Shown here in pieces: positions 10,688-37,700 of a stretch of 64,000 bases of DNA. Below the pieces are notes generated by a model, which was not told where the DNA came from, ran no database searches, and saw nothing but the letters and a program-made list of their open reading frames with translations. The stretch is from Arthrobacter sp. SLBN-100 (lineage in GTDB: Bacteria; Actinomycetota; Actinomycetes; Actinomycetales; Micrococcaceae): the NCBI RefSeq assembly GCF_006715305.1, contig NZ_VFMY01000001.1, forward strand, positions 2,356,001 to 2,420,000, in the 5' to 3' direction. Made by a program: the position numbers and the translations under genes. Each line of letters starts with the position of its first letter. Position 1 is the stretch's first letter.

Positions 10688-10715
10688 CTGCACCAGGCAC
10701 CGAAATTAGCCCCGT

Positions 10716-10745
10716 GCACGGAGGCGCTGGGAGGCGCCTCCGTGC
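10716..10745 (+). terminator. Transcription terminator after the ABC/glucosidase operon
   Basis: A perfect 12-bp stem, GCACGGAGGCGC pairing with GCGCCTCCGTGC, encloses a 6-nt loop. It starts 28 nt after the glucosidase stop. No T-tract follows, as is common in GC-rich actinobacteria. Confidence 0.7.
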
Positions 10746-10972
10746 CGCACGCACACCTCCAGAGCCAAAGGACTCTTAATGAAATTTCCTTTGAACGAGC
10801 CCCGCCCCTGGCCGCCCCGGTTCCTTAATAGCAAGTACCGGAGAGACGCTCGAGTTGAGGCACTGGTGCGGGGCGGTTCGGGAAACATAGGGATGCAATA
10901 CCGTCTTCATGCGGATGAAGTTGCGATGCACATACAAAGGGTGCGGGCGGTTACTGGATTAGGAGTAAATGC

Positions 10973-11851: not shown

Positions 11852-11888
11852 CGGGCAGAGCTCAGTGGAGTGAGAGGACGTTGCCCAG

Positions 11889-13118: not shown

Positions 13119-13121
13119 CCC

Positions 13122-13151
13122 TTGACCGATTCAACTGCTTCTCCCCATACT
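13122..13151 (+). promoter_or_regulatory. Candidate promoter of the secreted GH15 gene
   Basis: TTGACC at 13122-13127 is separated by 18 bp from CATACT at 13146-13151, a reasonable SigA-type promoter reading toward the GH15 gene. Confidence 0.45.
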
Positions 13152-13162
13152 AAGGGGGCATT

Positions 13163-13179
13163 TATTAACGGCGTTTATA
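13163..13179. promoter_or_regulatory. Candidate operator, 17-bp imperfect palindrome
   Basis: TATTAACGGCGTTTATA is palindromic at 14 of 16 arm positions around a central G. It lies just downstream of the candidate -10, where a repressor would block initiation, and midway between the divergent ROK and GH15 genes. The ROK protein is the obvious candidate ligand. Confidence 0.5.
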
Positions 13180-13233
13180 TATTCCCGCCGGTCGTGCTGG
13201 CGCGACCAAAACGCCCAAATCTTCAGGAGAGCA

Positions 13234-16200: not shown

Positions 16201-16389
16201 TGGATCAAGGAGTGGCGCTTCGGCGGCGGAGCCGGTGTCTTCGACGGCGGCATCGCCTCCCGGGATACGGACACCAGCGATCCGAACGCACTGGACGTGA
16301 TTGTCCGTGACGGCCAAAGCCAGGCCGACGTGCTCAACTGGCAGGCGGGCTCGCCCGTGGTGATTCCCATGGTGGGAATGACGCCGTAA
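13234..16389 (+). CDS. Secreted GH15 glucodextranase/glucoamylase-like enzyme
   Basis: This 1051-residue exoenzyme starts with a signal peptide (cleavage likely at ASA|QA, residue 28). A beta-rich GH15 N-domain (about 30-290) is followed by the (alpha/alpha)6 catalytic barrel (about 300-705), then two beta-rich domains (about 715-800 and 800-1045). The general acid is predicted as E457 in RWEETGGYSTS and the base as E655 in MIPEQVWD. Length, N-A-B-C domain order and motif spacing match what I recall of Arthrobacter glucodextranase, which releases beta-glucose from dextran ends; a starch-type glucoamylase is the alternative. AGGAGA precedes the ATG by 3-4 nt. The product would feed the ABC importer and glucosidase encoded at 5780-10687. 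Confidence 0.88.
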   Translation: MKHHLRTTCAAAAIAVAASAAAFSPASAQAEPAPGAPGASATWTKGDKEGVGTSVSTASKVWYTLTEGTLSEVYYPRADTPNTRELQFAVSDGSRSQRENEDTTRRVELADPQALSYRQITEDSAGRWRLTKTYVTDPERSAVTLGVTFEALDGGDYQLFALFDPSLAGTSGGDSGRTVGDDLVAEDLSIPDTPVASALVSSSGFSATSTGYVGTSDGGTDLAADGKLDGAYPEAGPGNIAQTGRIPLTGAKTEFALALGFGANAEEAINTANASVNRGFPNVSKDYTKEWKKYLQSLDKPAKALDGELRTQYDVSLMTVKAHEDKTFPGAFIASLTTPWGQVANAEQHREGYHAVWARDMYQSVSALLAAGDKDAARRGVEWLFKYQQQPDGHFPQTSKVDGTVGQNGIQLDETAFPILLANQIGRTDADFYANELKPAADYLVAAGPKTPQERWEETGGYSTSTLASQIAALAAAGDIAEKNGDAGSAAIYRATADEWQRNTEKWMFTTNGPVGDGNYYLRISGSGNPNDGAVRDWGNGAGTHPENAVLDGGFLEFVRLGVKPPADAHVADSIAETDASISQETPGGRMWHRYTYDGYGEKADGSPWDGTGVGRLWPLLTGERGEYALANGQDALPYLATMHSAANDGFMIPEQVWDQDEPTSYGHALGRSTGSASPLSWAMAQYVRLAAGMKHGSPVETPQNVASRYAGGAVAEPALEITSPAQLITSDSDSTTVSGTTAAAEVFISVNGKVVEAPLTPAANGTSAFSVDVALPGTKNTVTVAAVGADGGTAVEERTVLHYGNRIGGLTDPSGDDNGPGSYTYPTNPVYVPGAFDLTAVDVYDAGDKYAFVSTIAGDVTNPWGGQGISHQRINVYLSNGDATATPALPGTNVNVEHAWDSVIVTDGRFDGAGVYSPHGTRTSAVSLLAVPEAKQIVTMVPKEALGTLEPASAKFAVAMFGNAEAGEGIGNVRPVYDGAYWAAGDPSWIKEWRFGGGAGVFDGGIASRDTDTSDPNALDVIVRDGQSQADVLNWQAGSPVVIPMVGMTP

Positions 16390-16401
16390 ACCCAAATCCC
16401 C

Positions 16402-16433
16402 AAGGCGGGGCCGGAAATCTCCGGCCCCGCCTT
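16402..16433 (+). terminator. Terminator after the GH15 gene
   Basis: A perfect 14-bp stem (AAGGCGGGGCCGGA pairing with TCCGGCCCCGCCTT) with a 4-nt loop lies 12 nt past the stop and ends in TTT. Confidence 0.85.
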
Positions 16434-16637
16434 TCCCGTATATGGACGCCATTGGAACCAGAAAGAAAGACCAATAGTTATATCCGGAATGATTTGGAAC
16501 GGGGGAAAGCAATGAAGCATTACTTCGACTTATCTGACAGCTTCGGCGCGGCGGATTGGGCCGGCACTCAAGCAGATAGCGGCAGCATTCCTGACGACTG
16601 CTCGACACTTTTGGGGCTCGTGAACGAGCAGAAGCTG

Positions 16638-17588
16638 TTAGGCAAGCCGCACATCAAACCGCCGCCTGTACTCCGTCGGAGTCGTGGAGAACGCAGCCGC
16701 AAAGTTCTGCCGGAGGGTGACGGCGTTCCCGAATCCGCAGTCGGTGGAAACCTGGTCTATCGACAGGTCCGTGGTCTCAAGCAGCCGCCGGGCTGCGTCA
16801 AGGCGGCGGGCGCGGATCCAGGCGGCCGGCGTCGTCCCGGTTGCCGCCCGGAAGGACCGGACGAATGTGCGGCGGCTCAGGTGTGCCTGCGCCGCGAGCC
16901 GGTCGATGGTAAGCGGTTCACCCAGGCGGGCCAAGGCCCATTCCAGAAGGCGCGAGATCGGGTCATCGGAGGAGCGCTCCGGCACCGGGCGCTCAATGTA
17001 TTGCGCCTGTCCGCCCTCCCGGTGCGGAGCGATGACCAGGCTGCGTGCCACCCGGTTCGCCGCCTCCGCTCCAAGCCGGGCGCGCACCAGGTGCAGGCAC
17101 GCGTCCAGCGCGGAGGCCGTACCGGCCGAGGTCAGCACGTCACCGTGGTCTATATAGAGCACGGACTGGTCAAGCGGGACATCGGGGTGCCGCGCAGCAA
17201 GCGAATCGAAGGCCTGCCAGTGGGTGACGGCCCGGCGCCCGGCGAGCAGGCCGGCATCGGCAACGGGAATCGCACCAAGGCACAAACCCAAGATGGGCAC
17301 CCCACGCCCGTGTGCCCCTTGGAGCACCTGCCGCAGCGAATCGCTGGGGACGCGCCCGTCGTCGAACCATGAAGGCACCACCACGACGTCCGCTGCTTCC
17401 GCGGCCGCCGGCCCTTTCACCTCGCCCAGCCGATAACCCTCAGCAGTTGTGATCCCGCCTTCCTGGTCAGAGAAAAGGACCGTCTTCCACGCGGCAAGGC
17501 CTTGACGGGCCACCTCGTCAAAAACCATCTGCGGAACCGCGAGGTGAAACATCGTTGCGCCATCGAAGGCGTACACCGCGATCCTCAT
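16638..17588 (-). CDS. GlxA-family AraC-type transcriptional regulator
   Basis: This is a 316-residue regulator with an N-terminal DJ-1/PfpI-like domain (about 1-170) and a C-terminal AraC double helix-turn-helix (about 215-316). The nucleophile-elbow region reads GLCLGAIPVADAGLLAG, typical of GlxA regulators. The DNA-binding end contains LSRRTFVRSFRAATGTTPAAW and the second motif DCGFGNAVTLRQNF. The start was set at 17588 because MRIAVYAFDG matches the family N-terminus and AAGGG lies about 8 nt upstream; a longer frame to 17744 has no family support. It is divergent from the isochorismatase-like hydrolase, a common pairing, and probably controls it. Confidence 0.88.
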   Translation of the reverse strand: MRIAVYAFDGATMFHLAVPQMVFDEVARQGLAAWKTVLFSDQEGGITTAEGYRLGEVKGPAAAEAADVVVVPSWFDDGRVPSDSLRQVLQGAHGRGVPILGLCLGAIPVADAGLLAGRRAVTHWQAFDSLAARHPDVPLDQSVLYIDHGDVLTSAGTASALDACLHLVRARLGAEAANRVARSLVIAPHREGGQAQYIERPVPERSSDDPISRLLEWALARLGEPLTIDRLAAQAHLSRRTFVRSFRAATGTTPAAWIRARRLDAARRLLETTDLSIDQVSTDCGFGNAVTLRQNFAAAFSTTPTEYRRRFDVRLA

Positions 17589-17722
17589 TCTGGCCCTTCC
17601 TCTACTTTGGCCCGAATCCATCGTATACGCGCCTTCGTGCCACTGTTGGTAAACATCGCCAGCGGGAAGAGTGGAACAGTTGCCAGAAGGCAGCCCAAAG
17701 AACCACCAGGGAGAACAAAAAT

Positions 17723-20974: not shown

Positions 20975-23281
<2,307 letters not shown>

Positions 23282-23360: not shown

Positions 23361-23437
23361 GGGTGATTGCCCGCAAAGAAAGGGGAGATTGCCCGAATTA
23401 AGGGGGGTTATTGCCCGTTAAAAGGGGTGTTTTCCCG
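23361..23437. repeat. Four phased copies of a 13-bp GGG..CCCG element
   Basis: Four near-identical 13-mers occur: GGGTGATTGCCCG (23361), GGGAGATTGCCCG (23383), GGGTTATTGCCCG (23405) and GGGTGTTTTCCCG (23425). Start-to-start distances are 22, 22 and 20 bp, close to two helical turns, so all copies face the same side of DNA. Each has GGG/CCC dyad symmetry and lies in A-rich linkers. A TTGAGG (23438-23443) and CAGAAT (23462-23467) 18 bp apart follow directly and could be a promoter. The array lies 360-435 bp before the glucan operon. It is probably a multi-site operator, but this is inference. Confidence 0.75.
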
Positions 23438-23700
23438 TTGAGGACAAACAGTTCCCTATGCCAGAATGGGCATGGTTTCGCTTGTTCACGATAGGAAATT
23501 CGTAGAAAGCAAAGTATCTGGCCGCCTGACTCAGCTCTTACGCGGCCGGTTCGGTCCCCGCGATACCGGGGACGTGCCGGGTTGCGGGTGGCAACTCAGC
23601 ATTCTCCTACAGTCATGGCCCCCCGTGAGCCTGAATAAGGCGTCCCCAGTAATCGGAACTGGCGGTGGACCCGTTCCGATCGATGATGGGAACGGCGATC

Positions 23701-23799
23701 ATGACCCGGTTCCTCCGCCTAGGCATTGACGTTGGCTCGAAGACGAACCACACCGGAATAACCGAAGTGGTTCTCCACCCGCCCAGGATGCCAGCGTGA
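23701..23799 (+). CDS. Possible 32-residue leader ORF or gene remnant
   Basis: ATG at 23701 opens a 32-codon frame (MTRFLRLGIDVGSKTNHTG and further residues). Its TGA stop overlaps the GTG start of the glycogen synthase fusion, like the other junctions in this operon. The RLGIDVGSKTNHTG segment resembles the first strand of ASKHA or RNase H-fold proteins, including IS110-type transposases, so it may be a remnant rather than a real leader peptide. No good ribosome binding site was seen. The rest of 23438-23700 contains no convincing gene. Confidence 0.2.
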   Translation: MTRFLRLGIDVGSKTNHTGITEVVLHPPRMPA

Positions 23800-26700
23800 T
23801 GCTTACTGATCTGTCTGTCCCCACCAACGGGACCAAGGACGGCGTCCTCCTAAAGGTGGAACCGCCGGAGGTCGCTTTCACTGCCCCGGCCCTTACGCGG
23901 CAACGGGTGCTCTTCGCCAGTGCCGAGGCGTACCCGTTCATGAAGGTGGGCGGACTGGCTGATGTCAGCAGTGCTCTGCCGAAGAGATTATCCGAGCTGG
24001 GCTTTGACGTCCGTCTGGTGATCCCGGCTTACAAAGGCCTCGGAGGCAGCCCGGTGCTGACGATCGATGTGCCGTTCGGTCCGATCGCCGAGCGCGTCAC
24101 TGTTCGCCGGCTCCCGTCCTTGGGCGCAGTGGACGTACTCGCACTTGACGCTCCGGGGTGGTTCGACCGGGAGTTACCGTACAGCTACCAGGACAACGAT
24201 GTCATGCCGTTTGTGCTGTTCTCCAAAGCAGTCACAGCGCTGGCTGCTCAGGGAGAGTGGCGTCCGAACATCATTCACTGCAACGACTGGCATTGCGGGC
24301 TCGTGGCGCAGGAAGCCCGGCAGGGAGTGCACAGGCAGGCGTTAGCAAGTACTGGGATCGTCTTCACCATCCACAACATCGCCTATCAGGGGCCTGTGGG
24401 GGCGGCGACCGACCGACTGATAGGACTGCCGCAGGGCGGAAGTTTGCTCGAACGGGGTATCGCGTTCGCAGACCGGATTAACACCGTTAGTCCCCGTTAC
24501 ATGGAGGAGATCCTCACCCCGGCCCAGGGAGCGGGTTTGGACGGGCTGCTGCGCGCCCGCAGGGGCGCCGCCCGCGGCATTCTTAATGGCGTCGACTACG
24601 CCGAGTTCAGCCCCGGGCTGGACCCGTGGATCGACACCCGCTACAACGGCGACTTTGTCGCAGGCAAGGGCGCGAACAAGAAAGTCCTGCAGAAGCTGAG
24701 CAACCTGGAGCCCGCTCCAGACCGGCCGCTCTTCGGCATGGTCGCCCGGCTGGTATCGCAGAAAGGGATTAGCCTGCTGACTTCCGCCTTGGAGCAGTTT
24801 GTCGCCCGGGGAGCCCAGGTGGTGGTGATGGGTGAGGGCGCGCCCCGGTACAGGCGCCAACTGCAGTTGGCCACCCGGTGTTACCCCGGAAGCGTGAGCT
24901 ACCATCCCACTTCGAGCGAGTCCCTGGCCCGGCAGGTCTACGCCGGCAGTGACTTCTTCCTTGCCCCGTCCGTTTTCGAGCCGTGCGGGCTGACGCCGCT
25001 GATCGCCCTGAAATACGGCACCATCCCCATCGTGCGTCGCACCGGCGGCCTCGCGGACACCGTGACGGATTACGTCGAGGATCCCGCCGAAGGTCTGGGG
25101 TTCGTCTTCGTGCAACGCCGCGTAGCGTCCATGCTGTCGGCTGTGGACAACGCACTGGCAGTCTACTCACGGATGCCTGAAATGAACCATCTCCAGCGGA
25201 GGGCAATGAGGGCAGATTTCTCCTGGCGGGTGCCTGCGCGTGAGTATGTGGCCGTGTACGAGGAGGCTCTGCACTCACGCAGTAACATCGAGGTCAGCCG
25301 GAGCACCGAACAGACCAGCCAGCCGGGACTGCGGTCGAGGCCGGCTTCCGCTCCGCTTCCCCTGGCGCTCGTCCACCATGCCAATCAGTTCCTGATTACC
25401 GACGGCTATCAGGACCGGGAGGGCCTGACCTCGCTCATTAGGGGGTACAGTGCGCTGCTGCGGATGCACGAGAAGTACCGCGTCCCGCTGAACCTCCACT
25501 TGTCAGGGACACTGATTGAAGCCGCAGCCTGGCAGCACCCTTGGTTCCTGGCGGAGGTCCGTCGGCTCCGCGACGTCGGCCTGGTCTCACTCACGGGCGG
25601 GACGTACTCCGAAAACGTCCTTACCGCCTTCGACAGGGAATACAACCGGCGGCAACTGCAGGAGCTGTTTTGGCTCTACCGGCACCACCTCGGGTGCGCG
25701 TCGAGCGATCTGGAGATCTGCTGGGTCCCTGAGCGGGTGTGGGATACGGACCGCCTTGCCAAGGTCCTGACCGACCCCCGGCTGCCAAATGGCGGATATC
25801 GTTACGTCCTGCTCGATGACCGGCTGCTGTATCCCTCCGATGGTGCCCACGGAGTCAGCGACAGGCTTGAATTTGACGGGGCCGACCCGGCCAGCCCTCC
25901 TCCTTCGGATGCCCTCCGCCCATACCGCATCAAGGGCGGCAAGGGCCTGCAGGTCGTGCCGATGTCGACCCGGCTGCGCTACTGGATTCCTCCTGATGAC
26001 AGGAGCCACTGGCGTAGCCTGTCCCGGGCCGCCGAGCTTCCAACGGCTCCCGGTGATGACAGCATCCTGGTCTATGCGGACGACATGGAAAAGAGCGCGG
26101 GAGTGGGGGCGTGGCATCCCAGTGCCCTTGGTCGGTATGAGGAATTCCTGCGCTGGCTTGCCACCCAGCCCAAGCTTTTACCTGTGGACCTATCATCGTG
26201 GCTTCGCCAGCGCCGGAGGAGCCCCGGTGTCCGGGTTGTGGAACGCGGAACCTTCGTGGAGCTGGCTAAGGATTGGCACGCGGGAGAAGACTACAGCGGC
26301 TGGTGCAAGGACGAAGCGTGGGCCCCTTACCAGGAGCACCTCGCCCGGGCCCGCCGTGTAGTGGCCGACGCAGAGCGGGCGGGCGCAGAACACCGGCTGA
26401 CGGCGCTGGCCTGGAAGCATGTGCTTGCTTCCGGGTATGAGACGGCATGGCACGACACTGCCCACCCCGACCGGCTGCCGGCCGCCTGGGCCAAGGCTGT
26501 GGCCAGCCATGTGCGAGCCGCCTGCGTGTTGGCCGCCGCCGCGGGATGGTTCGGCCGGCAGGCCCGCCCGCTGGAGGCCGAAATGATTGACATTGACGAC
26601 GACGGCGCCGAGGAGCTGGTGCTGCGAAGCGAGCACCTGTTCGCCGTGCTCGCCCCGGAGCGTGGCGGTCGGCTGGTCTACCTGGCGTACCGGGGCTCTA

Positions 26701-27329
26701 ACGGGGGCGTTTTGGTGATCGGCAATCCCACTGACGACTGGAACCGCCAGGAGGAGCTGAACACTTACATGGACGTCCCAGCCAACCACCCCGGGGGCCT
26801 TGCCGACGGCGGAGGCGTCCACGACCGATACGAAGTCAGCATCGATTGGGGGGACGGAATAGTCGTATCGGAGCTGAGGAATGTGCAGGAGGACAGCCCT
26901 CTGTTCGGGTTGTGCAAAAGGGTGGCCCTTGCTGGCGCTGTCCCTTCCCTGCTGGTGGCCTACGACCTGCCCCCGGGCGCAGACGGGGTCACCGTCCATA
27001 CGTGCCTGTCGCCGGACTACTACCGGTTACTCCGCCACGGCGTGGCAGCGCTGCAGCGCACTGGAGGAACCAGCTGGCAGGGCGCCTCCAGCAGGGCAAC
27101 CCACGTATGGGTAGCGCTGGCCGACGACGAAGACAGCGCGTGGTGCGACCCGGAAGCACAGGAACCGGGGCACGGCGTCCTCATCAGCCTGCGTGCACAA
27201 GCAAGATCCTTCCACCTGCTCATCGGTCTGGGTGAGATCGACGAGAAGGTCGCCCAGGAAACGGTGAAGTCGGCCCGGGAACGGCTCGCCGTCCTGGCTG
27301 CACGCGAGCTGACGGGAGACCGGGCGTGA
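23796..27329 (+). CDS. Glycogen synthase (GT5) fused to a GH57 domain
   Basis: This 1177-residue cytosolic protein joins two enzymes. Residues about 35-495 are a GT5 glycogen/starch synthase that adds ADP-glucose (or UDP-glucose) to alpha-glucans: KVGGLADV at 50-57, IIHCNDWHCGL, and FEPCGLTPLIALKYGT near the C-terminal nucleotide site. Residues about 520-890 form a GH57 catalytic domain (motif 1 LALVHHANQF; motif 3 CWVPERVW with the predicted nucleophile E646; motif 4 VYADDMEKSAG with the acid D762 or D763). A beta-rich C-terminal part resembles the domain of 4-alpha-glucanotransferases (HLFAVLAPERGGRLVYLAY). GH57 members hydrolyse, transfer or branch alpha-1,4-glucan. GTG at 23796 follows AGGAT. 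It leads a tightly coupled operon with kinases and an exporter. Confidence 0.85.
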   Translation: MMLTDLSVPTNGTKDGVLLKVEPPEVAFTAPALTRQRVLFASAEAYPFMKVGGLADVSSALPKRLSELGFDVRLVIPAYKGLGGSPVLTIDVPFGPIAERVTVRRLPSLGAVDVLALDAPGWFDRELPYSYQDNDVMPFVLFSKAVTALAAQGEWRPNIIHCNDWHCGLVAQEARQGVHRQALASTGIVFTIHNIAYQGPVGAATDRLIGLPQGGSLLERGIAFADRINTVSPRYMEEILTPAQGAGLDGLLRARRGAARGILNGVDYAEFSPGLDPWIDTRYNGDFVAGKGANKKVLQKLSNLEPAPDRPLFGMVARLVSQKGISLLTSALEQFVARGAQVVVMGEGAPRYRRQLQLATRCYPGSVSYHPTSSESLARQVYAGSDFFLAPSVFEPCGLTPLIALKYGTIPIVRRTGGLADTVTDYVEDPAEGLGFVFVQRRVASMLSAVDNALAVYSRMPEMNHLQRRAMRADFSWRVPAREYVAVYEEALHSRSNIEVSRSTEQTSQPGLRSRPASAPLPLALVHHANQFLITDGYQDREGLTSLIRGYSALLRMHEKYRVPLNLHLSGTLIEAAAWQHPWFLAEVRRLRDVGLVSLTGGTYSENVLTAFDREYNRRQLQELFWLYRHHLGCASSDLEICWVPERVWDTDRLAKVLTDPRLPNGGYRYVLLDDRLLYPSDGAHGVSDRLEFDGADPASPPPSDALRPYRIKGGKGLQVVPMSTRLRYWIPPDDRSHWRSLSRAAELPTAPGDDSILVYADDMEKSAGVGAWHPSALGRYEEFLRWLATQPKLLPVDLSSWLRQRRRSPGVRVVERGTFVELAKDWHAGEDYSGWCKDEAWAPYQEHLARARRVVADAERAGAEHRLTALAWKHVLASGYETAWHDTAHPDRLPAAWAKAVASHVRAACVLAAAAGWFGRQARPLEAEMIDIDDDGAEELVLRSEHLFAVLAPERGGRLVYLAYRGSNGGVLVIGNPTDDWNRQEELNTYMDVPANHPGGLADGGGVHDRYEVSIDWGDGIVVSELRNVQEDSPLFGLCKRVALAGAVPSLLVAYDLPPGADGVTVHTCLSPDYYRLLRHGVAALQRTGGTSWQGASSRATHVWVALADDEDSAWCDPEAQEPGHGVLISLRAQARSFHLLIGLGEIDEKVAQETVKSARERLAVLAARELTGDRA

Positions 27330-28333
27330 GTGCACCAAACCCTGACACTGATACACGTGCGCAGAAGCAAGCGATTGCCGAGGCCCTGCTCGCGTCGCCG
27401 CCACCGCTTGATGCCCTGCCTCCGGGACGGGTGCAGGTGCTCACACGCTCGGTTGTGCACGCCTCCCGCAGCCGGCCGGTTGTCCGGTGGACCGTAGCCC
27501 TTGACTCCGGGTCCGGCGCCTCGACTCTGCTGGCAGTGATCGGCAAGGGCTACCGTGCCGGCGGCGGCGAGCAGGCATGGCGGCTGCTCAGGAGCCTGCG
27601 TCAGGCTGGCTTGGATGACGCAGAGCTTAGGGTCCCTGCACCCTACGGGTTTGACCCGTCCCGTCAGCTTCTCGCACAGGAGGAGGCCCCGAACACCACG
27701 CTGCATTCACTCTTGGACGGCGACCCACAATCCGCCGCGCCCGAAGCCGGCCGAGCAGGGCGCTGGCTGGCCCGCCTGCACCATGTCAGGGGTGTTTATG
27801 CGCCCGACCTGGCGGCAGACTTCGAGCGGCTAAAGCTGGCCGAGTATGCCGAGGCGTTGGCCGAGCTCTTGCCCCGGTCCGCCGCGAGAGTGGCAGAGCT
27901 CACCGCAGCCACCGTTGAGGAGCTGGCCAGGGCCGATGGGCCCCGCGTGCTCACACACGGCGACTTCCAACCCAAGAACATCCACTTGGACCGGTACCGT
28001 CTCGTGGTCATCGACTTCGACCGCGCCGCATGGGCCCCTGCCGGGCGGGACCTCGGCCATTTCATTGGGCAGACACTGACCATGGGCGCCTACCGGCACG
28101 GAAACCTCACGGCCGCCGTGCCCTGGGTGGACAGGTTCCTGGAAGACTACTCGGCTGCCGGCGGCGATGAAGGTGCAGTCCGGTCCGTCCCCGCCTACGT
28201 TGCCCGCACCTTCGCCGAGGTCCTTTTCTACCGCCTCGTAGTTCGCCCGGTCCGGGACTCCTCGTTCGTCCCTGACTGGTTGGACGCTTGGGAAGGGGCC
28301 GTCAGCGCCGCCGCGGGAGGGAGGTCCAGGTGA
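27326..28333 (+). CDS. APH-fold phosphotransferase (intact catalytic motif)
   Basis: A 335-residue kinase of the aminoglycoside/choline phosphotransferase fold. The catalytic loop is intact, VLTHGDFQPKNIHLD, with Asp as base and Asn as magnesium ligand, followed by VVIDFDRAAWAPAGRDLGHF, where the Asp corresponds to the DFG position. The N-lobe is short and variable. It starts at a GTG overlapping the stop of the GT5-GH57 gene (GTGA) and ends in the same way on the ABC gene, so it belongs to the operon. The substrate is probably a sugar or oligosaccharide made by the fusion enzyme. Maltokinases belong to a related fold family, but this is not a recognisable Mak. Confidence 0.8.
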   Translation: MSAPNPDTDTRAQKQAIAEALLASPPPLDALPPGRVQVLTRSVVHASRSRPVVRWTVALDSGSGASTLLAVIGKGYRAGGGEQAWRLLRSLRQAGLDDAELRVPAPYGFDPSRQLLAQEEAPNTTLHSLLDGDPQSAAPEAGRAGRWLARLHHVRGVYAPDLAADFERLKLAEYAEALAELLPRSAARVAELTAATVEELARADGPRVLTHGDFQPKNIHLDRYRLVVIDFDRAAWAPAGRDLGHFIGQTLTMGAYRHGNLTAAVPWVDRFLEDYSAAGGDEGAVRSVPAYVARTFAEVLFYRLVVRPVRDSSFVPDWLDAWEGAVSAAAGGRSR

Positions 28334-30324
28334 GACGAACCAGCGGACGCCAGACTCCCATCGCCGCCGCAGCGGCGCACCCGTCGGGCACTGCTATTCC
28401 GGTCATGCATGCCCACATGATCCTGCGTACCTTCGGACCGTTCCTGCGCCCGCAATGGCCCGGCTGCGTGCTGGCCGCGCTGCTCGCGGTCGCCGGGACG
28501 GGCATCGCGCTGCTCAAGCCATGGCCACTGAAGTATCTCTTCGACGAAGTGCTGTTGCCCAGCGGGAACCCCACCAGCCAGGACATCCAGTACATCCTGG
28601 TCCTGGTCGTCGTGGCGCTGGCCGGCATCGCCGTCCTGGACTCCCTGGTGGGCGCAGCCCGAAGCTATGTCCTGACCGTGGTCGGGGAACGGGTCGCCGC
28701 ATCAATCCGCACCCAGCTCTATGATCACCTGCAGCGGCTGCCCCTTGCATACCACGAAGGGACACCAACAGGTGAACTGACCACCCGCCTGACCGGAGAC
28801 GTCGACAAGGTGCGGGCACTGCTTACCGTGACGTTCGTTGACGCCTCAACGCACGTGCTCACACTGGCCGGCATGACCGGGGTGCTGCTGGTCATGGACT
28901 GGCAACTCAGCCTGGCACTGCTGTTGGTGCTGCCACTGTTGCTCCTCACGGTGTCCAGCTTTCGAGCCCGCATCCGCACAGTGGAGGAAAGCGCGCGCGA
29001 CAGTGAGGGCGACCTGGCGGCGGTAGCGCAGGAGTCACTGGTAGCGATCAAGCTGGTCAAGGCCGCAGGACGGGAAGAGCATGAATCCAAGCGCTTCCGT
29101 CGCCACTCCGATGCCTCAGTCTCTGCAGTGCTGCGCTCGTCGCGCACCAGCGCCACGTTTGGCGCCGCCGTGGACGCTGTCGTGGCTGTAGCCACCACAG
29201 GTCTGATCTGGCTCGGCGCCCAGCGTGTGCTCGAAGGTGCGCTAACACCAGGAGACCTGGTCATCTTCACCTCGTACCTGCGTGACTTCTTCGGCCCAAC
29301 ACGCGCCCTGTCCAAGCTGCCGGCCCAGCTGGCCCGTGCGGGGGTGCGCGCGGCACGCATCGCGGACACCCTCCGGCGCAGCCCTGACATCCAGGACAAA
29401 CCTGGTGCCCGTCCCGCCGGCCCACCGCGGAAGCAGCTGAGCCTGGATGGGGTTGGATTTGCCTACACCCAGGACCGCCCCGTCCTGCGGGATGTGGACC
29501 TGACGGTCCCGGTGGGCAGCACCCTGGCAGTTGTCGGACCCACCGGGGCAGGGAAGTCCACAATCGCTGCCCTTTTGTGCCGGCTGCAGGACCCCACCAT
29601 CGGCCGGGTCCTTCTGGACGGCACGGACCTGCGTGACCTGACTGGCGCGAGCCTGCACGCCCAGGTGGGGCTGGTTACCCAGGACGCCGTGCTGTTCCGG
29701 GCATCCGTAAGGGAGAACATTGCGTACGGCCGGCCAGATGCCTCGCTGGAAGAGGTCCAGGACGCAGCCCGCGCTGCCCAGGCCCACAGCTTCGTGGAGG
29801 CGCTGCCCCGCGGCTACGACACCGTGCTGGCGGAGCGCGGGGCAACGCTGTCCGGAGGCCAGAAACAGCGGTTGGCGCTGGCGCGCGGATTGCTGCAGGG
29901 CTGCCCGGTCCTCGTGCTCGACGAACCGACGACGGGTCTGGATGCCCAATCCGAGCACGCGCTGCTGGAGGCCCTCCTGCAGGTGGCATCCGGGCGGACC
30001 ACAGTGATCATCACGCATCGCATGGCTGCGGCCATGGCAGCCGATGAGATCGTCGTCCTTGATGCGGGCCGGGTAGTGGAACGCGGCACCCACCACCGGC
30101 TCATCGCCGGCGGCGGCCTCTACACCGCGATGTGCCGTCTACAGGGCATCACCGGCTTAGGCCCCACGTGGAACGGCACCAGCCACGGCAATGGGCGCCA
30201 CCCCTCACCACAGTCCGAAGTCGAAGCTGACCAGCCCGCTACCTACCCGAGAGAGGAAGCCGACCGTGACGGAGCCCAGTTTCCAGCCGGACCCCACCAA
30301 CTTGATAGTTGGCGTCACCGGTAG
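28330..30324 (+). CDS. ABC exporter, TMD-NBD half-transporter
   Basis: This 664-residue ABC type-1 exporter half has six membrane helices (about 40-330) and a nucleotide-binding domain with Walker [11 protein letters not shown], signature LSGGQKQRLALARGL and Walker B VLVLDEPTTGLD. All catalytic positions are intact, so a homodimer is expected. It has a roughly 50-residue polar C-terminal extension. The GTG at 28330 overlaps the preceding kinase stop and is preceded by GGAGGGAGG. Placement in an alpha-glucan operon recalls ABC exporters of cyclic or capsular glucans, so export of an oligosaccharide is a reasonable inference, not a demonstrated function. Confidence 0.88.
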   Translation: MRRTSGRQTPIAAAAAHPSGTAIPVMHAHMILRTFGPFLRPQWPGCVLAALLAVAGTGIALLKPWPLKYLFDEVLLPSGNPTSQDIQYILVLVVVALAGIAVLDSLVGAARSYVLTVVGERVAASIRTQLYDHLQRLPLAYHEGTPTGELTTRLTGDVDKVRALLTVTFVDASTHVLTLAGMTGVLLVMDWQLSLALLLVLPLLLLTVSSFRARIRTVEESARDSEGDLAAVAQESLVAIKLVKAAGREEHESKRFRRHSDASVSAVLRSSRTSATFGAAVDAVVAVATTGLIWLGAQRVLEGALTPGDLVIFTSYLRDFFGPTRALSKLPAQLARAGVRAARIADTLRRSPDIQDKPGARPAGPPRKQLSLDGVGFAYTQDRPVLRDVDLTVPVGSTLAVVGPTGAGKSTIAALLCRLQDPTIGRVLLDGTDLRDLTGASLHAQVGLVTQDAVLFRASVRENIAYGRPDASLEEVQDAARAAQAHSFVEALPRGYDTVLAERGATLSGGQKQRLALARGLLQGCPVLVLDEPTTGLDAQSEHALLEALLQVASGRTTVIITHRMAAAMAADEIVVLDAGRVVERGTHHRLIAGGGLYTAMCRLQGITGLGPTWNGTSHGNGRHPSPQSEVEADQPATYPREEADRDGAQFPAGPHQLDSWRHR

Positions 30325-30439
30325 CGCGGTACCCCGGCAATCCAAGGACGCCCTCAGCTTTCCGCTGCTGCTGAAGCGCGAGTGCGCACGAGTGCGCTGG
30401 ATTACCGATAACCCCTTCCCAGTAAAGGATGACGCATGA
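30266..30439 (+). CDS. Possible 57-residue linking ORF in the glucan operon
   Basis: A GTG at 30266, inside the end of the ABC gene, opens a 57-codon frame after GAGAGGAAG. Its stop overlaps the ATG of the next phosphotransferase gene (ATGA at 30436-30439), the junction type used elsewhere in this operon. Without it there would be an atypical 111-nt gap. The peptide (VTEPSFQPDPTNLIVG..., ending DNPFPVKDDA) matches no family I know. It may serve translational coupling or be chance. Confidence 0.3.
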   Translation: MTEPSFQPDPTNLIVGVTGSAVPRQSKDALSFPLLLKRECARVRWITDNPFPVKDDA

Positions 30440-31467
30440 ACCGCACCGAAATCCGATCCCAGTACCGCCGTATCAAGGAGCAGCAGGTCAATCGTGTCGA
30501 ACGGGTCTGTGCACCGGAGTTCCTCAACCGGTATGTCCGCCCACATTTGAATCGGGCGGTTGCGGGCGCCTCGGACGGAGGCACGTGGACAACAGACGTG
30601 ATTCAGCTGGACGGATCCGGGGCCGCCACTGTAAAGATCAATCTCGACGGCGGCCCCCCTGTTTTCGCCAAGCTGTTCCCCTTCGAGGATGGGCCTGCCG
30701 TGCACGCAAAATTGCAGGCCTTGCGCAATGCCGGGCTGGGGGCCGGCTCCCCGTTCCAGGCTGTTGAGCCGCTGGCGTGGTGCGCGGACGAAAAGGTCCT
30801 GCTGTGCCAGGGAGCTCCGGGCAAGGCACTGTCGGAAGTGCTCGACGACGGCGCTGAACTCACCGAGGGCTGTGCCCGGGCCGGATCATGGCTGGCCCAC
30901 CTGCATAAGGTGGATCTCCGGATCGGGGCTCCACACTCCCTACTCGTGACAGGGGAACTGACGAGCTTGGCAAGACGCCTTGTCAAAGCGGCGGCTGACC
31001 GTCCTGGTTACGCTGAGGTGGCATTGGGCATGCTCGAACGGTTGGACGACCTCACCCATGGCACCGTGGACAGCGTCCATGCCCAAAGCCACGGGCAGTA
31101 CCGGCCGATCCACGTCTTCCTGACCGAGGAAACCGTTACGGTGATCGACCTCGACCGTAGTGCCCCGGCGGACCCCGCCCGCGATGTGGCCGAGTTCCTC
31201 CACCGGCTGCGCCAAGGCGTTCACTCAGCCACCGGCGACATTTCCCGGGCCGACCAGCCGTGCAATGCTTTCCTCGGCGCGTATCGGGAGGCAGCCGGCG
31301 TCGAGCGGCTGCGAAACCTGCAGTTTCACTGGGCCCGGTATATATTCCACAGCCTCAACGGCGAGGTGAAAAACGCGGACGCTGACTGGCACAACGCTGG
31401 AAACGATGTCTTCCGGCGCTACCGGGAGGAGTTCTATAGGGTGGCAGAAGGGCGGGCAGGCGCATGA
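30436..31467 (+). CDS. APH-fold protein with degenerate catalytic motif
   Basis: A 343-residue protein with the C-lobe pattern of phosphotransferases: SWLAHLHKVD, then the catalytic-loop equivalent SHGQYRPIHVFL and VTVIDLDRSAPADPARDVAEFL. The usual HGDxxxxN reads HGQxxxxH, so both the catalytic Asp and the metal-binding Asn are replaced, while the later IDLD Asp is kept. It may be a pseudokinase or binding partner of the intact kinase, or use altered chemistry. It overlaps the next, also degenerate, family member by 4 nt. Assignment to the fold is by pattern; function is unknown. Confidence 0.65.
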   Translation: MNRTEIRSQYRRIKEQQVNRVERVCAPEFLNRYVRPHLNRAVAGASDGGTWTTDVIQLDGSGAATVKINLDGGPPVFAKLFPFEDGPAVHAKLQALRNAGLGAGSPFQAVEPLAWCADEKVLLCQGAPGKALSEVLDDGAELTEGCARAGSWLAHLHKVDLRIGAPHSLLVTGELTSLARRLVKAAADRPGYAEVALGMLERLDDLTHGTVDSVHAQSHGQYRPIHVFLTEETVTVIDLDRSAPADPARDVAEFLHRLRQGVHSATGDISRADQPCNAFLGAYREAAGVERLRNLQFHWARYIFHSLNGEVKNADADWHNAGNDVFRRYREEFYRVAEGRAGA

Positions 31468-32462
31468 CGTCAACTCTGGGCGTCCTGCTGGACCGTGCAG
31501 GGGTGGAGCTCCCGCTGTCCGAGCTCGCGAGTCTGTGGCCACTGGGTGGTTGGAACTCGGTTGCCCCCGTGCCAGCCGGCAAAAACGAGCACCTGCGCGT
31601 TGCAGCCGCGGATGGTGTCCACTACCTGCGCCGCTCGTACCGATCCAAACCGCACGAGGAACTTGCGCGCCAACTCCACCTGATGCGGCTGCTTCGGGAT
31701 CGGGGATTCCCCGCACCGGAGGTGGCCTCCGCCAGCTCCGGCAAGGACCACGCAGAGCTGGACGGCCGGTTATGGATCGCCACGCGGGGAGTCGAAGGGA
31801 CACCGTTCAGCGATGCATCACCGGCGCACGTGCAGGCTATGGGACGAACACTTGCACGGTACCACCAGACCGTGGCCGACCTTCCAGCGGCAGTGACCGA
31901 ACCCGCCGTGCTGGTGGAATTGCGCACGCGGGCAAATGAGGAAGGGGTAGAGTCCGCCCTGAGAACCCGGACCGCGCTCCTGGTCGCACAATTAACCGCA
32001 GTCCTGCCACACCTGCCCCGGGTGGTAGTGCACGGCGGCGCCCGACGAGGCAGCCTGGTATTCAACGGCAGCAAGGTAGCGGGCGTCCTGGACTTCGACA
32101 GTGCCCACGCGGACGTGCGCGTCCTGGATCTTGCCGTCGCCGTCCACGACGTCGGCAAGGTCTACACCCGCCCAGGCGAAGCCGATAATAAGGTCGCCCT
32201 CGACCTCGGCCGGGTCACTGAACTGCTGGCCGCTTACAGCCGGGATTTGCGGCCTACGGAGGCAGAGATCGAGGCGCTGCCGCTGCTGCTGGAGGCCAAA
32301 CGGTTGAAGCGCGGCCTGGGGCGGCTCAGCCGGTCACGGCACGGCGAAAGGCTCTCCGACAATGACTACACCAAGATCCGGTTGGAAGACCAGCGGATTG
32401 CTTGGCTGGACGAGCACCGCAGCGCGTTGGCGGCCGCTTTCCGGAAAGCCCTGGCGGGATAG
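31464..32462 (+). CDS. APH-fold protein with degenerate catalytic motif
   Basis: A 332-residue protein of the aminoglycoside phosphotransferase/homoserine-kinase-II-like fold. The N-lobe contains NEHLRVAAADGVHYLRRSYR and the C-lobe MGRTLARYHQTV. The catalytic loop reads VVHGGARRGSLVFNG followed by VAGVLDFDSAHADVRVLDLA. The expected HGDxxxxN is HGGxxxxS, so the base and metal ligand are lost, although the fold-defining DFD is present. It is the last gene of the block beginning at 23796. With the preceding gene it forms a pair of probable pseudokinases beside one intact kinase. No strong terminator was seen after it. Confidence 0.65.
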   Translation: MTSTLGVLLDRAGVELPLSELASLWPLGGWNSVAPVPAGKNEHLRVAAADGVHYLRRSYRSKPHEELARQLHLMRLLRDRGFPAPEVASASSGKDHAELDGRLWIATRGVEGTPFSDASPAHVQAMGRTLARYHQTVADLPAAVTEPAVLVELRTRANEEGVESALRTRTALLVAQLTAVLPHLPRVVVHGGARRGSLVFNGSKVAGVLDFDSAHADVRVLDLAVAVHDVGKVYTRPGEADNKVALDLGRVTELLAAYSRDLRPTEAEIEALPLLLEAKRLKRGLGRLSRSRHGERLSDNDYTKIRLEDQRIAWLDEHRSALAAAFRKALAG

Positions 32463-33661: not shown

Positions 33662-33804
33662 CCGGAAATCCAAGCGGGCGCAGCGGGCCCGGTCCTTTCT
33701 GGTGAAACAGCCAAAATCTTGTCGAATTCCCACAAAATGGCGGCAGGAAGGGAGAACTAGCGTCGGCTGTGAGGAACTTCCACGGCAAGCGCAAAGGACC
33801 ATCA

Positions 33805-34869
33805 ATGACGATTCAGGCGAATGTACCCACCAGCCCGAACTCCGCGAGCGCCGGCAAGGGTTGCGACGGCAAGGGTAAGCGCATCCTGGACATCGCCCGC
33901 CAGCAGGTTCTCGAGGACGGCATGGGCCTGACCCAGGCTCAGCTCGAAGAGGTGCTTCGCCTCCCGGATGATGCGGTTCCCGCCGCCTTGGAGTTGGCAC
34001 ACCAGGTCCGGCTCCGGCACTGCGGCGAGGAGGTGGAGGTGGAGGGCATCATCTCCATCAAGACCGGCGGCTGCCCGGAAGACTGCCACTTCTGCAGCCA
34101 GTCGGGCCTCTTCGACTCCCCCGTCCGCGGCGTCTGGCTGGACATCCCCGAGCTGGTCAAGGCCGCCAAGGAAACGGCCGCCACCGGAGCCACCGAGTTC
34201 TGCATCGTGGCTGCTGTCCGCGGGCCCGACATCAAACTGATGAACCAGATCAAGTTCGCCATTGACCGCATCAATGAGGAAGTGGATATCAACATCGCCT
34301 GCTCGCTGGGCATGCTCACCCAGCGCCAGGTCGACCAGCTCAAGGACTGGGGCGTCCACCGCTACAACCACAACCTCGAAACAGCGCGCAGCTACTTCCC
34401 CGAAGTCGTCACCACCCACGGCTACGAGGAACGGCTCGAGACCTGCAACATGGTCAAGGACGCCGGCATGGAACTGTGCTGCGGCGCCCTGATCGGCATG
34501 GGCGAAAGCCTGGAGCAGCGGGCAGAACTCGCCGCCCAGCTCGCAGCCCTGGAACCCCACGAAGTCCCGCTGAACTTCCTCAACCCCCGGCCCGGAACCC
34601 CGCTGGAAAACCAGGGCATCATGGACGGCAAGGACGCCCTCCGCGCCATCGCCGCCTTCCGGCTGGCCATGCCCCGCACCGTGCTCCGCTACGCCGGCGG
34701 ACGCGAACTCACGCTCGGCGACCTCGGCACCCGCGACGGCCTGCTCGGCGGAATCAACGCCGTCATCGTCGGCAACTACCTCACCACCCTCGGCCGCCCC
34801 GCCACCGCAGACCTGAACCTGCTCGTGGACCTCAACATGCCCATCAAGGAACTCCAGAAGACGCTATGA
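33805..34869 (+). CDS. bioB: Biotin synthase
   Basis: A 354-residue radical SAM enzyme that inserts sulfur into dethiobiotin. The SAM [4Fe-4S] motif CPEDCHFC uses C90, C94 and C97. The downstream CSLGMLT, NHNLET and [10 protein letters not shown] segments match BioB, including cysteines expected to ligate the second [2Fe-2S] cluster. AAAGGA lies 6 nt before the ATG at 33805; the longer frame to 33769 has no such site. The stop overlaps the start of the small cysteine-rich gene that follows, as in other actinobacterial bioB-bsaP pairs. No bioA, bioD or bioF is in the window. Confidence 0.95.
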
Positions 34870-35346: not shown

Positions 35347-35823
35347 ATGGACTGGCAAGGTTGGGCCGTGTTCGGGCTGTTGGCAACCTCCGTGCTGACC
35401 GCGGTGATGATCGCCGCCCAGATGGCGGGGTTGACCAGGCTGGACCTTCCGCTGGTGCTGGGAACCCTGGTCACGCCTGACCCGGATAAAGCCCGGGTGG
35501 CAGGCTTCTTTATCCATCTCGCTGCGGGGCAGGCATTCGCCCTGGGCTACGCCGCCGTGTTCGCACTCCTGGGGCAGGCAACCTGGTGGCTCGGTGCACT
35601 GCTGGGACTGCTTCACGTGGCGGTTGCCTTAACGGTCATCCTGCCCCTGATGCCCGGCGTCCACCGGAGAATGGCGACCACCAGGGCGGGACTCAGCACG
35701 ACGGCGGCGCTGGAACCACCCGGCCTGCTCGGCCTGAACTACGGCATCCAGACTCCGGCCGTCGCCGTGGTGGCCCACGTGATCTACGGTGCAGTGCTTG
35801 GGCTCCTTTTGGGGGCACGATGA
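35347..35823 (+). CDS. Small integral membrane protein, function unknown
   Basis: A 158-residue hydrophobic protein with four probable membrane helices (about 5-27, 52-75, 79-101 and 136-157). The N-terminal segment is WAVFGLLATSVLTAVMIAAQ, and ALGYAAVFALLG and GALLGLLHVAVALTVILPLM are further core helices. I do not recognise the family. AAGGTGA precedes the ATG. The gene overlaps the GH15 gene by 4 nt, so both are produced together. It may sense or shape the membrane in a stress response, but nothing in the sequence shows this. Confidence 0.75.
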   Translation: MDWQGWAVFGLLATSVLTAVMIAAQMAGLTRLDLPLVLGTLVTPDPDKARVAGFFIHLAAGQAFALGYAAVFALLGQATWWLGALLGLLHVAVALTVILPLMPGVHRRMATTRAGLSTTAALEPPGLLGLNYGIQTPAVAVVAHVIYGAVLGLLLGAR

Positions 35824-37700
35824 GCGCTAATCACCAAGCCGCCGCGGCCCCGCAGCAGAGTGACATCCTCGTTCAGGCGCCGCCGGCGCGTCCCACCCCC
35901 ATCGCGGATTATGGGCTCCTTGGCGACACGCGGACCGCCGCGCTTGTCTCGGCCGCCGGGTCCGTTGACTGGCTCTGCGCTCCCGCGTTCGACGGCGAGC
36001 CTCTCTTCGGTGCCTTGCTGGGAGGACCGGAGGCAGGCAGGTTCCTTGCAGGGCCGGCAGAGGACGCCCCGGTGGTCTTCCGCAGGTACCGCGAGAACAC
36101 GGCGACGCTGGAGACGGTGTGGGCTGCCGGGAACGGCCGGCTCGTTCTCACCGAGGCCATGATCGCGGAAGTGGCCGGCGAGCTGCTGCCCACCACCATC
36201 CTGGTCAGGCGGCTGGCCGCGGAAGGGTCATCAGTGCCCGTCACGATACTTTTCGACCCGCGGGTTGGCGAAAACCATCGCCTTCCGCGGGTGCGGCGCG
36301 GGCCCGGCGTCGTCTGCGACTGGGGTCCACTGGCAGCCTCCTTGGGAACGATCCCCCACCTCGATCTTGAGCCGGGGCGTCCCCTTACCTTCGACATCGC
36401 TCCGGGAAAACCCCTGACACTTGTCCTGGCGCTGGCCTTCGGCGAACCCCTGATCCACGTGGATCCGGCGGCGGCGTGGGACCTCGTTGGGAGGGACGAA
36501 GCCAGCTGGCGGGCTTGGACGGAGGAGATTGACGGCGCCCTCCCCTACCGCCAGGAGGTGGTGCGCAGCCTGCTCACACTCCGGCTGCTCACCTACTCAC
36601 CCTCGGGAGCTCCGGTGGCAGCTCCCACCACCTCGCTGCCCGAGGACCCTGGCGGCATTCGCAACTGGGACTACAGGTACGCCTGGCCCCGGGACGCCAG
36701 CATCGGCGTCGGCGCTTTCCTCCGGGCAGGGAAAACACAGGAAGCAGAGAACTTCCTTGGCTGGCTCCTCCATGCCAGCCGCCTCCAGCGGCCCCACCTC
36801 CCCGCCCTCCTCACCCTGACTGGAGGACAGGTTCCGGCGGAGCGGCAGCTGTCCCGCTGGCCCGGTTACGCCGGCAGCAGCCCGGTGCGGACGGGCAACC
36901 TCGCCGCCTCACAGCACCAGCTTGACGGCTACGGCTGGGTCATTGACGCCGCCTGGGCGTTTGTGGACAGCGGCCGCAGGCTGACCTCGGAAACGTGGCG
37001 GGCCATGCGGGGCTTCGCGGATCTGGTCGCCGCCACGTGGGAGAAGCCCGACGCCGGCATCTGGGAAATACGCGGTGACCCCGCCCAGCACGTGCACTCC
37101 AAAGTCATGGCCTGGCTCGCGCTGGACCGGGCCCTGCGCATCGCCGCCACCCACCGGCTCAGCAGGCGGCGCCAACTTCGCTGGGAATCGGCACGCGGCC
37201 AGATCGTGGCGGAACTCCGCACGAACGGCTACAACGAAGCTCTGAATTCGTACACACGCTCTTACGGTTCGAAAGACCTTGACGCAGCCCTGCTGGTCCT
37301 GCCGCTCACCGGCCTGGAAAAGCCAGGTTCACCGCGCCTTAGGGGAACGGTAGATGCGGTCCGCAGGGAATTGTCGGCCGGGTTCCCGCTGCTCTACCGC
37401 TATCCGCCGGGACAGGACGGCCTCCCCGGGACGGAGGGGGCGTTCCTGCCCTGCTCCTTCTGGCTGGTTCAAGCCCTGGCGAATACCGGCCGGCACGAGG
37501 AAGCCTCCGCCCTGTTTGAGGCGCTGCTGGAGAAGGGCTCACCGCTGGGGCTCTTCAGCGAGGAGATGGAACCGTCCTCCGGCATGTTTCTGGGCAACTT
37601 TCCGCAAGCCCTCACGCATTCCGCGCTGGTGCAGGCCGCACTTGCCCTCCGCGACAACCAGCCCGCCCTCAACCGAACAAACAGCGCACCAACCGAATAA
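35820..37700 (+). CDS. Cytosolic GH15 glucoamylase/trehalase-like glycosidase
   Basis: A 626-residue GH15 enzyme without signal peptide. The N-terminal beta domain (about 25-250) opens with the family motif ADYGLLGDTRTAALVSAAGS. The (alpha/alpha)6 barrel includes RNWDYRYAWPRDASIG. The predicted acid is the Glu of GIWEIRG and the base lies in LFSEEMEPSSGMFLGNFPQA. Related actinobacterial cytosolic proteins act on alpha-glucans or, in mycobacteria, on trehalose. It starts at an ATG overlapping the membrane-protein stop; a longer frame upstream only shadows that gene. It is distinct from the secreted GH15 enzyme at 13234. Confidence 0.88.
   Translation: MSANHQAAAAPQQSDILVQAPPARPTPIADYGLLGDTRTAALVSAAGSVDWLCAPAFDGEPLFGALLGGPEAGRFLAGPAEDAPVVFRRYRENTATLETVWAAGNGRLVLTEAMIAEVAGELLPTTILVRRLAAEGSSVPVTILFDPRVGENHRLPRVRRGPGVVCDWGPLAASLGTIPHLDLEPGRPLTFDIAPGKPLTLVLALAFGEPLIHVDPAAAWDLVGRDEASWRAWTEEIDGALPYRQEVVRSLLTLRLLTYSPSGAPVAAPTTSLPEDPGGIRNWDYRYAWPRDASIGVGAFLRAGKTQEAENFLGWLLHASRLQRPHLPALLTLTGGQVPAERQLSRWPGYAGSSPVRTGNLAASQHQLDGYGWVIDAAWAFVDSGRRLTSETWRAMRGFADLVAATWEKPDAGIWEIRGDPAQHVHSKVMAWLALDRALRIAATHRLSRRRQLRWESARGQIVAELRTNGYNEALNSYTRSYGSKDLDAALLVLPLTGLEKPGSPRLRGTVDAVRRELSAGFPLLYRYPPGQDGLPGTEGAFLPCSFWLVQALANTGRHEEASALFEALLEKGSPLGLFSEEMEPSSGMFLGNFPQALTHSALVQAALALRDNQPALNRTNSAPTE

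Follow-up and report, generated by a model that had tools for sequence, protein, structure and literature searches.

We describe an operon in the genome of Arthrobacter sp. SLBN-100 (NZ_VFMY01000001.1, positions 2,356,001-2,420,000 of the forward strand) in which a glycogen synthase (GT5) and a GH57 glucan enzyme, fused in one chain, are joined by an intact APH-fold kinase, two degenerate APH-fold proteins, and an ATP-binding cassette (ABC) exporter. The whole 64,000-nucleotide stretch that was analyzed is called the window hereafter, and coordinates are window positions. Each part of the operon is of a known kind, but we have not found the combination described. The reading that we tentatively prefer, with a little less than even confidence, is that these genes form a dedicated route by which a modified alpha-1,4-glucan or malto-oligosaccharide is made and exported.

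The operon (23796-32462) comprises five plus-strand genes in two overlapping blocks, the first formed by the fusion, APH1, and ABC genes and the second by APH2 and APH3. Domains were assigned with Pfam and NCBIfam profiles against their family or subfamily cut-offs. The features are as follows.

23796..27329, plus strand: GT5-GH57 fusion, 1177 amino acids; residues ~37-492 glycogen/starch synthase, residues ~519-1177 GH57 barrel, helical bundle, and C-terminal beta-sandwich
27326..28333, plus strand: APH1, intact APH-fold kinase, 335 amino acids; HGDFQPKN...IDFD; 4-nucleotide overlap with the fusion
28330..30324, plus strand: MsbA-type ABC exporter, single half-transporter chain, 664 amino acids; 4-nucleotide overlap with APH1
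30266..30439, plus strand: 57-codon open reading frame, an in-frame deletion scar of APH4; ~17 first and ~37 last codons of APH4 left
30436..31467, plus strand: APH2, conserved degenerate APH-fold protein, 343 amino acids; HGQYRPIH...IDLD; N-lobe Lys79 retained
31464..32462, plus strand: APH3, degenerate, homoserine-kinase-like APH-fold protein, 332 amino acids; HGGARRGS...LDFD; 4-nucleotide overlap with APH2

An earlier sequence-only reading of the window had described four main genes linked by 4-nucleotide overlaps. These overlaps are present (GTGA at 27326, GTGA at 28330, and ATGA at 31464), but the genes number five, and the ABC gene has a longer alternative open reading frame that begins at 28288. 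The same reading had correctly recognized the fusion with both of its predicted catalytic residues, as well as the ABC exporter, the APH-fold kinase, and its two degenerate relatives. At the motif with the catalytic Asp, APH1 reads HGDFQPKN, APH2 reads HGQYRPIH, and APH3 reads HGGARRGS. It had also begun the operon at 23361, which is instead the first base of a short tandem array (23361-23443) where no gene starts.

The GT5-GH57 fusion

The first part of the fusion scores 437.7 bits against the glgA subfamily profile TIGR02095 (cut-off 328.45), and the second part scores 47.3 bits against PF03065 (cut-off 21.2). Three motifs that we take to be catalytic in GT5 are retained: KVGGLADV and NDWH occur in all 10 aligned fusions, and FEPCGL occurs in nine, with YEPCGL in the remaining one. 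By our own mapping of residues and logo positions onto the window protein, the predicted GH57 catalytic residues are E646 and D763, both of which are invariant in the 20/20 and the 31/31 rows aligned (window included). Passages of PMC6037648 give Lys at GH57 logo position 23 as a fingerprint of 4-alpha-glucanotransferases and Trp at position 12 as common to most specificities. The window fusion carries both residues, as K766 and W643, and position 766 is Lys in 22, Arg in 8, and Ile in 1 of the 31 rows. When the GH57 model was compared structurally by using VIA-align 2, the nearest solved structure was the 4-alpha-glucanotransferase of Thermococcus litoralis (1K1W/1K1X), and the C-terminal domain is common to both. 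In sequence and in modeled fold, the domain has the features of an enzyme with predicted 4-alpha-glucanotransferase specificity.

The fusion is the single match to PF08323 in the whole genome. Because the standard actinobacterial pair of glgC (447.5 bits) and adjoining glgM (TIGR02149, 564 bits) is located away from the operon, at genome position C1:602791-605238, the fusion is an extra enzyme. Its reading frame is interrupted in the deposited sequences of three related loci (L014, L015, and L072), where sequencing error and decay are indistinguishable. Carriage on plasmids was considered and set aside, as a tblastn search of PLSDB with the fusion gave 533 records, none of which spans 80% of the query. 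The best 30 of these 533 matches are confined to fusion residues 10-562, mainly GT5, and many are annotated as glgA. Klebsiella accounts for 281 and Sinorhizobium for 79 of the 533 records.

Conservation and gene fusions among relatives

One scan of genome contigs yielded 44 loci that encode a relative, and a 46-bit fragment (L045) was dropped. We compared 15 other loci with the fusion (L002-L015 and L072) and 30 without it (L016-L044 and L073), making the counts for the latter ourselves. Conservation of the neighbors, which the sequence-only reading had chosen as a test of itself, bears that reading out: by tblastn, APH1, the ABC exporter, and APH3 are kept in 15/15 of the other fusion loci, and APH2 in 14/15 (not L011). 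Counts of this size indicate that the grouping is more than chance. The hosts include Arthrobacter, Pseudarthrobacter, Pseudonocardia, Geodermatophilus, Nocardioides, Cellulomonas, and a putative Rubrobacter.

Among the non-fusion loci, an APH-fold gene lies near the GH57 gene in 22/30 (weakly matched in L073), and an ABC exporter is part of the same gene run in 10/30 (L016, L017, L019, L023, L024, L038, L040, L043, L044, and L073). Loci L032-L035 carry an ABC gene of another kind, which is double in L033, the one checked. The ABC gene of L030 is ~8 kb away, and L026, from Bacillota, has a 73-bit match at a distance of 4 kb. L036, L037, and L039 have no ABC gene, and the L031, L041, and L042 loci are cut short. 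The Bacillota loci L018, L020-L022, and L025-L029 combine GH57 with an intact APH. One of them, L020, also encodes a GT4 protein (TIGR02149, 142 bits), a 217-amino-acid protein with no Pfam match, a HipA_2-like protein, and a weak RIO-like protein.

Several relatives have the partners in one chain. GH57 is fused to an intact APH in P0117, P0118, P0122, and P0124; P0119 and P0120 have the same arrangement with a degenerate APH added to the chain. In L044 it is the intact and degenerate APHs that are joined to each other. At L085, from another actinobacterium, a single 1289-amino-acid frame (11168-15037) encodes an ABC exporter plus an APH domain and lies beside GT4 and further APH-fold genes, with no GH57 or GT5 match within the 16,000 bases read. 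These separate GH57-APH and ABC-APH fusions suggest that the partners act together.

The exporter and the case for export

The exporter has both PF00664 (177.4 bits, cut-off 28) and PF00005 (110.7 bits, cut-off 25) in one chain. When this protein (P0003) is used as the query, the exporters of the clusters from Chloroflexi, Acidobacteria, Geobacteraceae, and Myxococcota score 331-555 bits, the L030 exporter, cut by the end of the locus, scores 255, and the next-best exporter of the Arthrobacter genome scores 292. However, Sav1866 reaches 350 bits against the same query, which exceeds the 331 bits of L024 and L040, so scores by themselves cannot set the exporters of these two loci apart from exporters outside such clusters. 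A tree that combines 17 cluster exporters with a small set of 5 controls places the cluster rows on one side (support 89/89, 86% of bootstrap trees). Two adjacent ABC exporter genes with a 4-nucleotide overlap, found elsewhere in the window (563-4311, minus strand), are separate from the operon exporter in this tree.

Further hints come from the gene order in relatives. The Geobacteraceae locus L023 runs from GH57 through APH1, a degenerate APH, a sulfotransferase, and an ATP sulfurylase/APS kinase to 880 nucleotides with an opposite-strand open reading frame, followed by ABC, a TolC-like gene, and an HlyD-like gene. The TolC-like gene overlaps the ABC gene by 4 nucleotides by coordinates, the HlyD-like gene is cut by the contig end, and the stretch from sulfotransferase to HlyD spans 8856-16575. 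Locus L044 has HlyD/MacA-, MacB-, and TolC-like genes downstream of its ABC gene, which may instead represent a separate MacAB system. L072 carries a sulfatase-family gene, a phosphodiesterase-family gene, and a gene for an ELWxxDGT-repeat protein between ABC and APH1, and a dual-specificity phosphatase-like gene follows the ABC gene in L024, with a similar one in L040. Neighbors of these types suggest that an exported product carries anionic groups, with each clue coming from one or two loci.

The sequence-only reading had put forward the idea of a pathway that would build, remodel, phosphorylate, and export or anchor an alpha-glucan or cyclic oligosaccharide. This idea is strengthened in part, by the conserved neighbors, by the GH57-APH and ABC-APH fusions, and by the TolC- and HlyD-like genes of L023. 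Weighing against it are the nine Bacillota loci, which pair GH57 with APH but show no comparable ABC gene in the available flanks, and export is accordingly not part of every form. These same loci favor an alternative in which the operon is an intracellular offshoot of glycogen metabolism, wherein the fusion makes and trims a storage glucan, APH1 supplies sugar phosphates or tags the glucan, and the ABC protein carries something else or balances the process. This alternative also draws on the GT5 score above the glgA subfamily cut-off and on the fact that storage glucan is phosphorylated in plants. We nonetheless consider it unlikely, given the ABC gene in every other fusion locus, the ABC-APH chain of L085, the export-type genes of L023, a glgC-glgM pair already present in the genome, and an occurrence in 4/295 genomes of the family, unlike a core storage route.

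Degenerate APH-fold proteins and a deleted sixth gene

Both degenerate proteins remain above the family cut-off for PF01636 (40.3 bits for APH2 and 87.9 bits for APH3). In APH2, the catalytic Asp is replaced by Gln or Arg in 21/21 rows, and Lys79, His226, and Asp238 are invariant across these 21 rows from five phyla or groups. Nucleotide binding may thus persist in APH2 even with the catalytic base lost. A survey of 198 APH2 homologues, in which the motif was read in 120, found HGQ with His in the place of Asn by pattern in 114 of the 120. Gln and His are kept in P0178, P0215, P0221, and P0226, where a neighboring residue is changed or the first His is gone; P0189 was mis-hit by the pattern, with the alignment showing HGQYRPIHV; and P0240 is partial. 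In the window APH3, HGG replaces HGD. More broadly, APH3 and APH4 carry HGG and HGS/HAS, with the exception of the class-3 protein of L030 (HGDYRRQN).

We considered whether the degenerate APHs are decaying pseudogenes. In three pairwise comparisons, APH2 and APH3 have ratios of nonsynonymous to synonymous substitution rates (dN/dS) of 0.17-0.23, and the remaining operon genes, three in number, have ratios of 0.14-0.25. Because these values resemble those of their neighbors, there is no sign of decay, and this explanation was ruled out.

The 57-codon open reading frame shares 59 nucleotides with the end of the ABC gene and 4 nucleotides with the start of APH2. It had been thought that this small frame might bridge the last junction, but neither a bridging gene nor a peptide precursor fits. 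In Arthrobacter sp. AK04 (L002), its place is taken by APH4, a 397-codon APH-fold gene (16463-17656) with HGSYGQSA instead of HGDxxxxN, and the window frame aligns in frame with the beginning and end of this gene, with the middle missing. By tblastn of the 15 other fusion loci, 9 have APH4 at approximately full length, L004 has a remnant of it, and 5 (L007, L011, L012, L014, and L072) lack it. All five junctions have 4-nucleotide overlaps in L002 and L003. The retention of APH4 in relatives indicates that six genes were probably present in the operon of the ancestor. The C-terminal tail of the window ABC protein (30255-30324), which lies beside the scar, is longer and different in sequence from those of L002, L003, L004, and L013, and this fits a disturbed junction between the ABC gene and the APH4 scar.

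The intact kinase and what it might phosphorylate

APH1 scores 61.6 bits against PF01636 (cut-off 23.2). Its HGD motif and the first Asp of IDFD are invariant in 27/27 rows, and the Asn is present in at least 90%. The model has a predicted local distance difference test (pLDDT) score of 92.0, and a fold search gave at least 50 matches, with those listed being kinases of the APH fold. The profile score, catalytic residues, and modeled fold are those of an active APH-fold kinase, and we predict that APH1 is one. The acceptor is less evident. PsiK, LxmK, and methylthioribose, homoserine, malto-, and glucosamine kinases are tied within ~3 Z units in the fold search, and the sequence gives weak matches only, to varied kinases.

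One might propose that the operon is a specialized cluster for an exported metabolite, such as a peptide or pseudo-oligosaccharide, on which the APHs act in the manner of LxmK or of acarbose-type sugar kinases. We regard this proposal as improbable, slightly more so than the intracellular branch. APH1 and APH2 score 39.6 and 30.6 bits, respectively, against LxmK profile NF038156, whose equivalog cut-off is 315. Likewise, the sole precursor-like open reading frame looked at within the operon is the deletion scar, and no aminocyclitol synthase was found among the neighbors scanned, which are a part of all neighbors. Least probable of the alternatives is a GlgE-like route, in which APH1 would be a malto-oligosaccharide 1-kinase resembling Pep2/Mak and GH57 would use the phosphorylated sugar as donor in the place of GlgE. 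Against it, thirteen rows of other kinases outrank maltokinase in the fold search (where a match alone is no proof of function), the APH1 sequence profile retrieves no maltokinase from the PDB at an E value of 0.01 or better, and APH1 has 335 residues compared with 451 in maltokinase 4u94.

A possible export pathway

Returning to the glucan-export pathway, what we observe is the gene content, conservation, gene fusions, intact and lost catalytic residues, selection, and GH57 fold; we infer the donor, product, phosphoryl acceptor, exporter cargo, and the part played by the degenerate APHs. The GT5 domain would extend an alpha-1,4-glucan by using ADP-glucose, and the GH57 domain would then cut and rejoin the glucan as a 4-alpha-glucanotransferase, thereby setting chain length or closing rings. 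APH1 might phosphorylate the product or an attached acceptor, while the degenerate APHs could bind nucleotide and/or glucan without phosphotransfer and serve as a scaffold, regulator, or loading factor. The ABC exporter would move the product across the membrane, in certain Gram-negative relatives perhaps by way of HlyD/TolC-type components.

The conserved inactive APH-fold proteins also raise a possibility that is further from known kinds. Perhaps one live and several dead APHs work physically with an alpha-glucan synthase-transferase and an ABC protein as an undescribed class of glycan-export system, in which a phosphorylated (and in some lineages sulfated) glucan is built, capped, and exported, via TolC in Gram-negative species. 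With a conserved Gln/Arg and an invariant His, the dead APHs would then be glycan-export cofactors of a new kind and not kinases. We view this proposal as rather unlikely, though as a live possibility. Regardless, dead APHs kept beside a live one across phyla, and in the same chain in some relatives, amount to a natural experiment on pseudokinases.

Distribution and transfer

The trait is sporadic. Besides its occurrence in the family noted above, the GH57 profile matches 2/396 genomes drawn from the phylum, with the Arthrobacter genome itself counted in both samples. The APH2 profile is found in 3/295 family genomes, all within the four that are GH57 positive, and in 3/396 genomes of the phylum sample, namely the two GH57-positive genomes and G335 (109 bits), which corresponds to L085. 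Because few candidates were scored per genome, these counts are lower bounds. Genomes G268, G007, and G488 are already counted among the 15 fusion loci as L013, L015, and L072.

In a GH57 tree of 37 rows (leaving out, by our cutting rule, L014, L015, L017, L018, L031, L041, and L042), Pseudonocardia and Geodermatophilus group with Arthrobacter at a fork with support of 100/100, and Cellulomonas lies outside. Cellulomonas belongs to the same order as Arthrobacter. This grouping points to transfer of the operon, which we consider probable, but is no proof of it.

Surroundings of the operon

The array upstream of the operon consists of four imperfect 22-nucleotide tandem units with the consensus GGGTGATTGCCCGTTAAGGG, and similar degenerate units precede the L002 operon. 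The repeat was considered as a recurrent operator and set aside, with the pattern TTGCCCGN5AGGGG having 17 occurrences with up to 2 mismatches, compared with 13.6 expected by chance. A KatG catalase-peroxidase gene (20987-23281) also lies upstream, as it does in L002 and L003. Farther away (7096-16389) are genes for alpha-glucoside use, including a sugar ABC permease, a GH13 enzyme, a ROK-family protein, and a 1051-amino-acid glucoamylase (TIGR01535, 1031 bits). Downstream are genes for a BioB-like radical SAM protein (33769-34869) and a GH15/trehalase-like protein (35586-37700). Scans of the 64-kb window for Rfam families (gathering thresholds) and tRNAs gave no match.

Comparison with known systems

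Our literature searches, which were aimed at the fusion, the gene set, and related matters and did not extend to CAZy or to a 2020 paper on GH57 groups near the 4-alpha-glucanotransferases, turned up neither a GT5-GH57 fusion nor the operon. The synthase shares the cut-off score and motifs of GlgA, but differs in its fusion to GH57 and in the location of glgC-glgM elsewhere. With the T. litoralis enzyme, the operon GH57 shares the barrel, helical bundle, C-terminal beta-sandwich, nucleophile, proton donor, and fingerprint Lys. However, identity is ~20%, the operon domain is fused to GT5 and accompanied by APH kinases and an exporter, and its activity here is predicted. Passages of PMC11046441 describe glgA-glgB fusions in chlamydiae, where the branching domain is described as inactive, and a glgB-malQ fusion in Neisseria suica; these also place two alpha-glucan enzymes in one chain, but with other partners and, in those passages, with no mention of a kinase/exporter operon. 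The mentions of fused, fusion, or Arthrobacter found there do not concern GT5-GH57.

The GlgE pathway with Pep2/Mak relies on GH13 GlgE rather than GH57, its kinase is longer than and distant in sequence from APH1, and the exporter and degenerate kinases are extra in the operon. In the class V lanthipeptide system LxmKY, an APH-fold kinase is likewise complexed with a partner (9dk1), whereas here the LxmK cut-off is missed and the partner is glucan related by fusion. Acarbose-type clusters bring together a 4-alpha-glucanotransferase, a sugar kinase, and an exporter, but that transferase is GH77 rather than GH57, and the operon neighbors scanned include no cyclitol synthase. ChvA/NdvA is a single-chain ABC exporter of a remodeled, phospho-substituted cyclic beta-glucan. 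The glucan here would be alpha rather than beta, and the operon exporter scores 248.6 bits against the ChvA profile TIGR01192, below the cut-off of 585.4.

A further parallel is the mycobacterial capsule. According to passages of PMC4981310, its alpha-glucan is made inside the cell, and dedicated secretion transporters are yet to be identified. This is likewise an alpha-glucan made inside an actinobacterium for which an exporter is required. The operon offers a concrete candidate exporter adjoining an alpha-glucan synthase in cultivable soil actinobacteria, and it bears on how alpha-glucan leaves cells.

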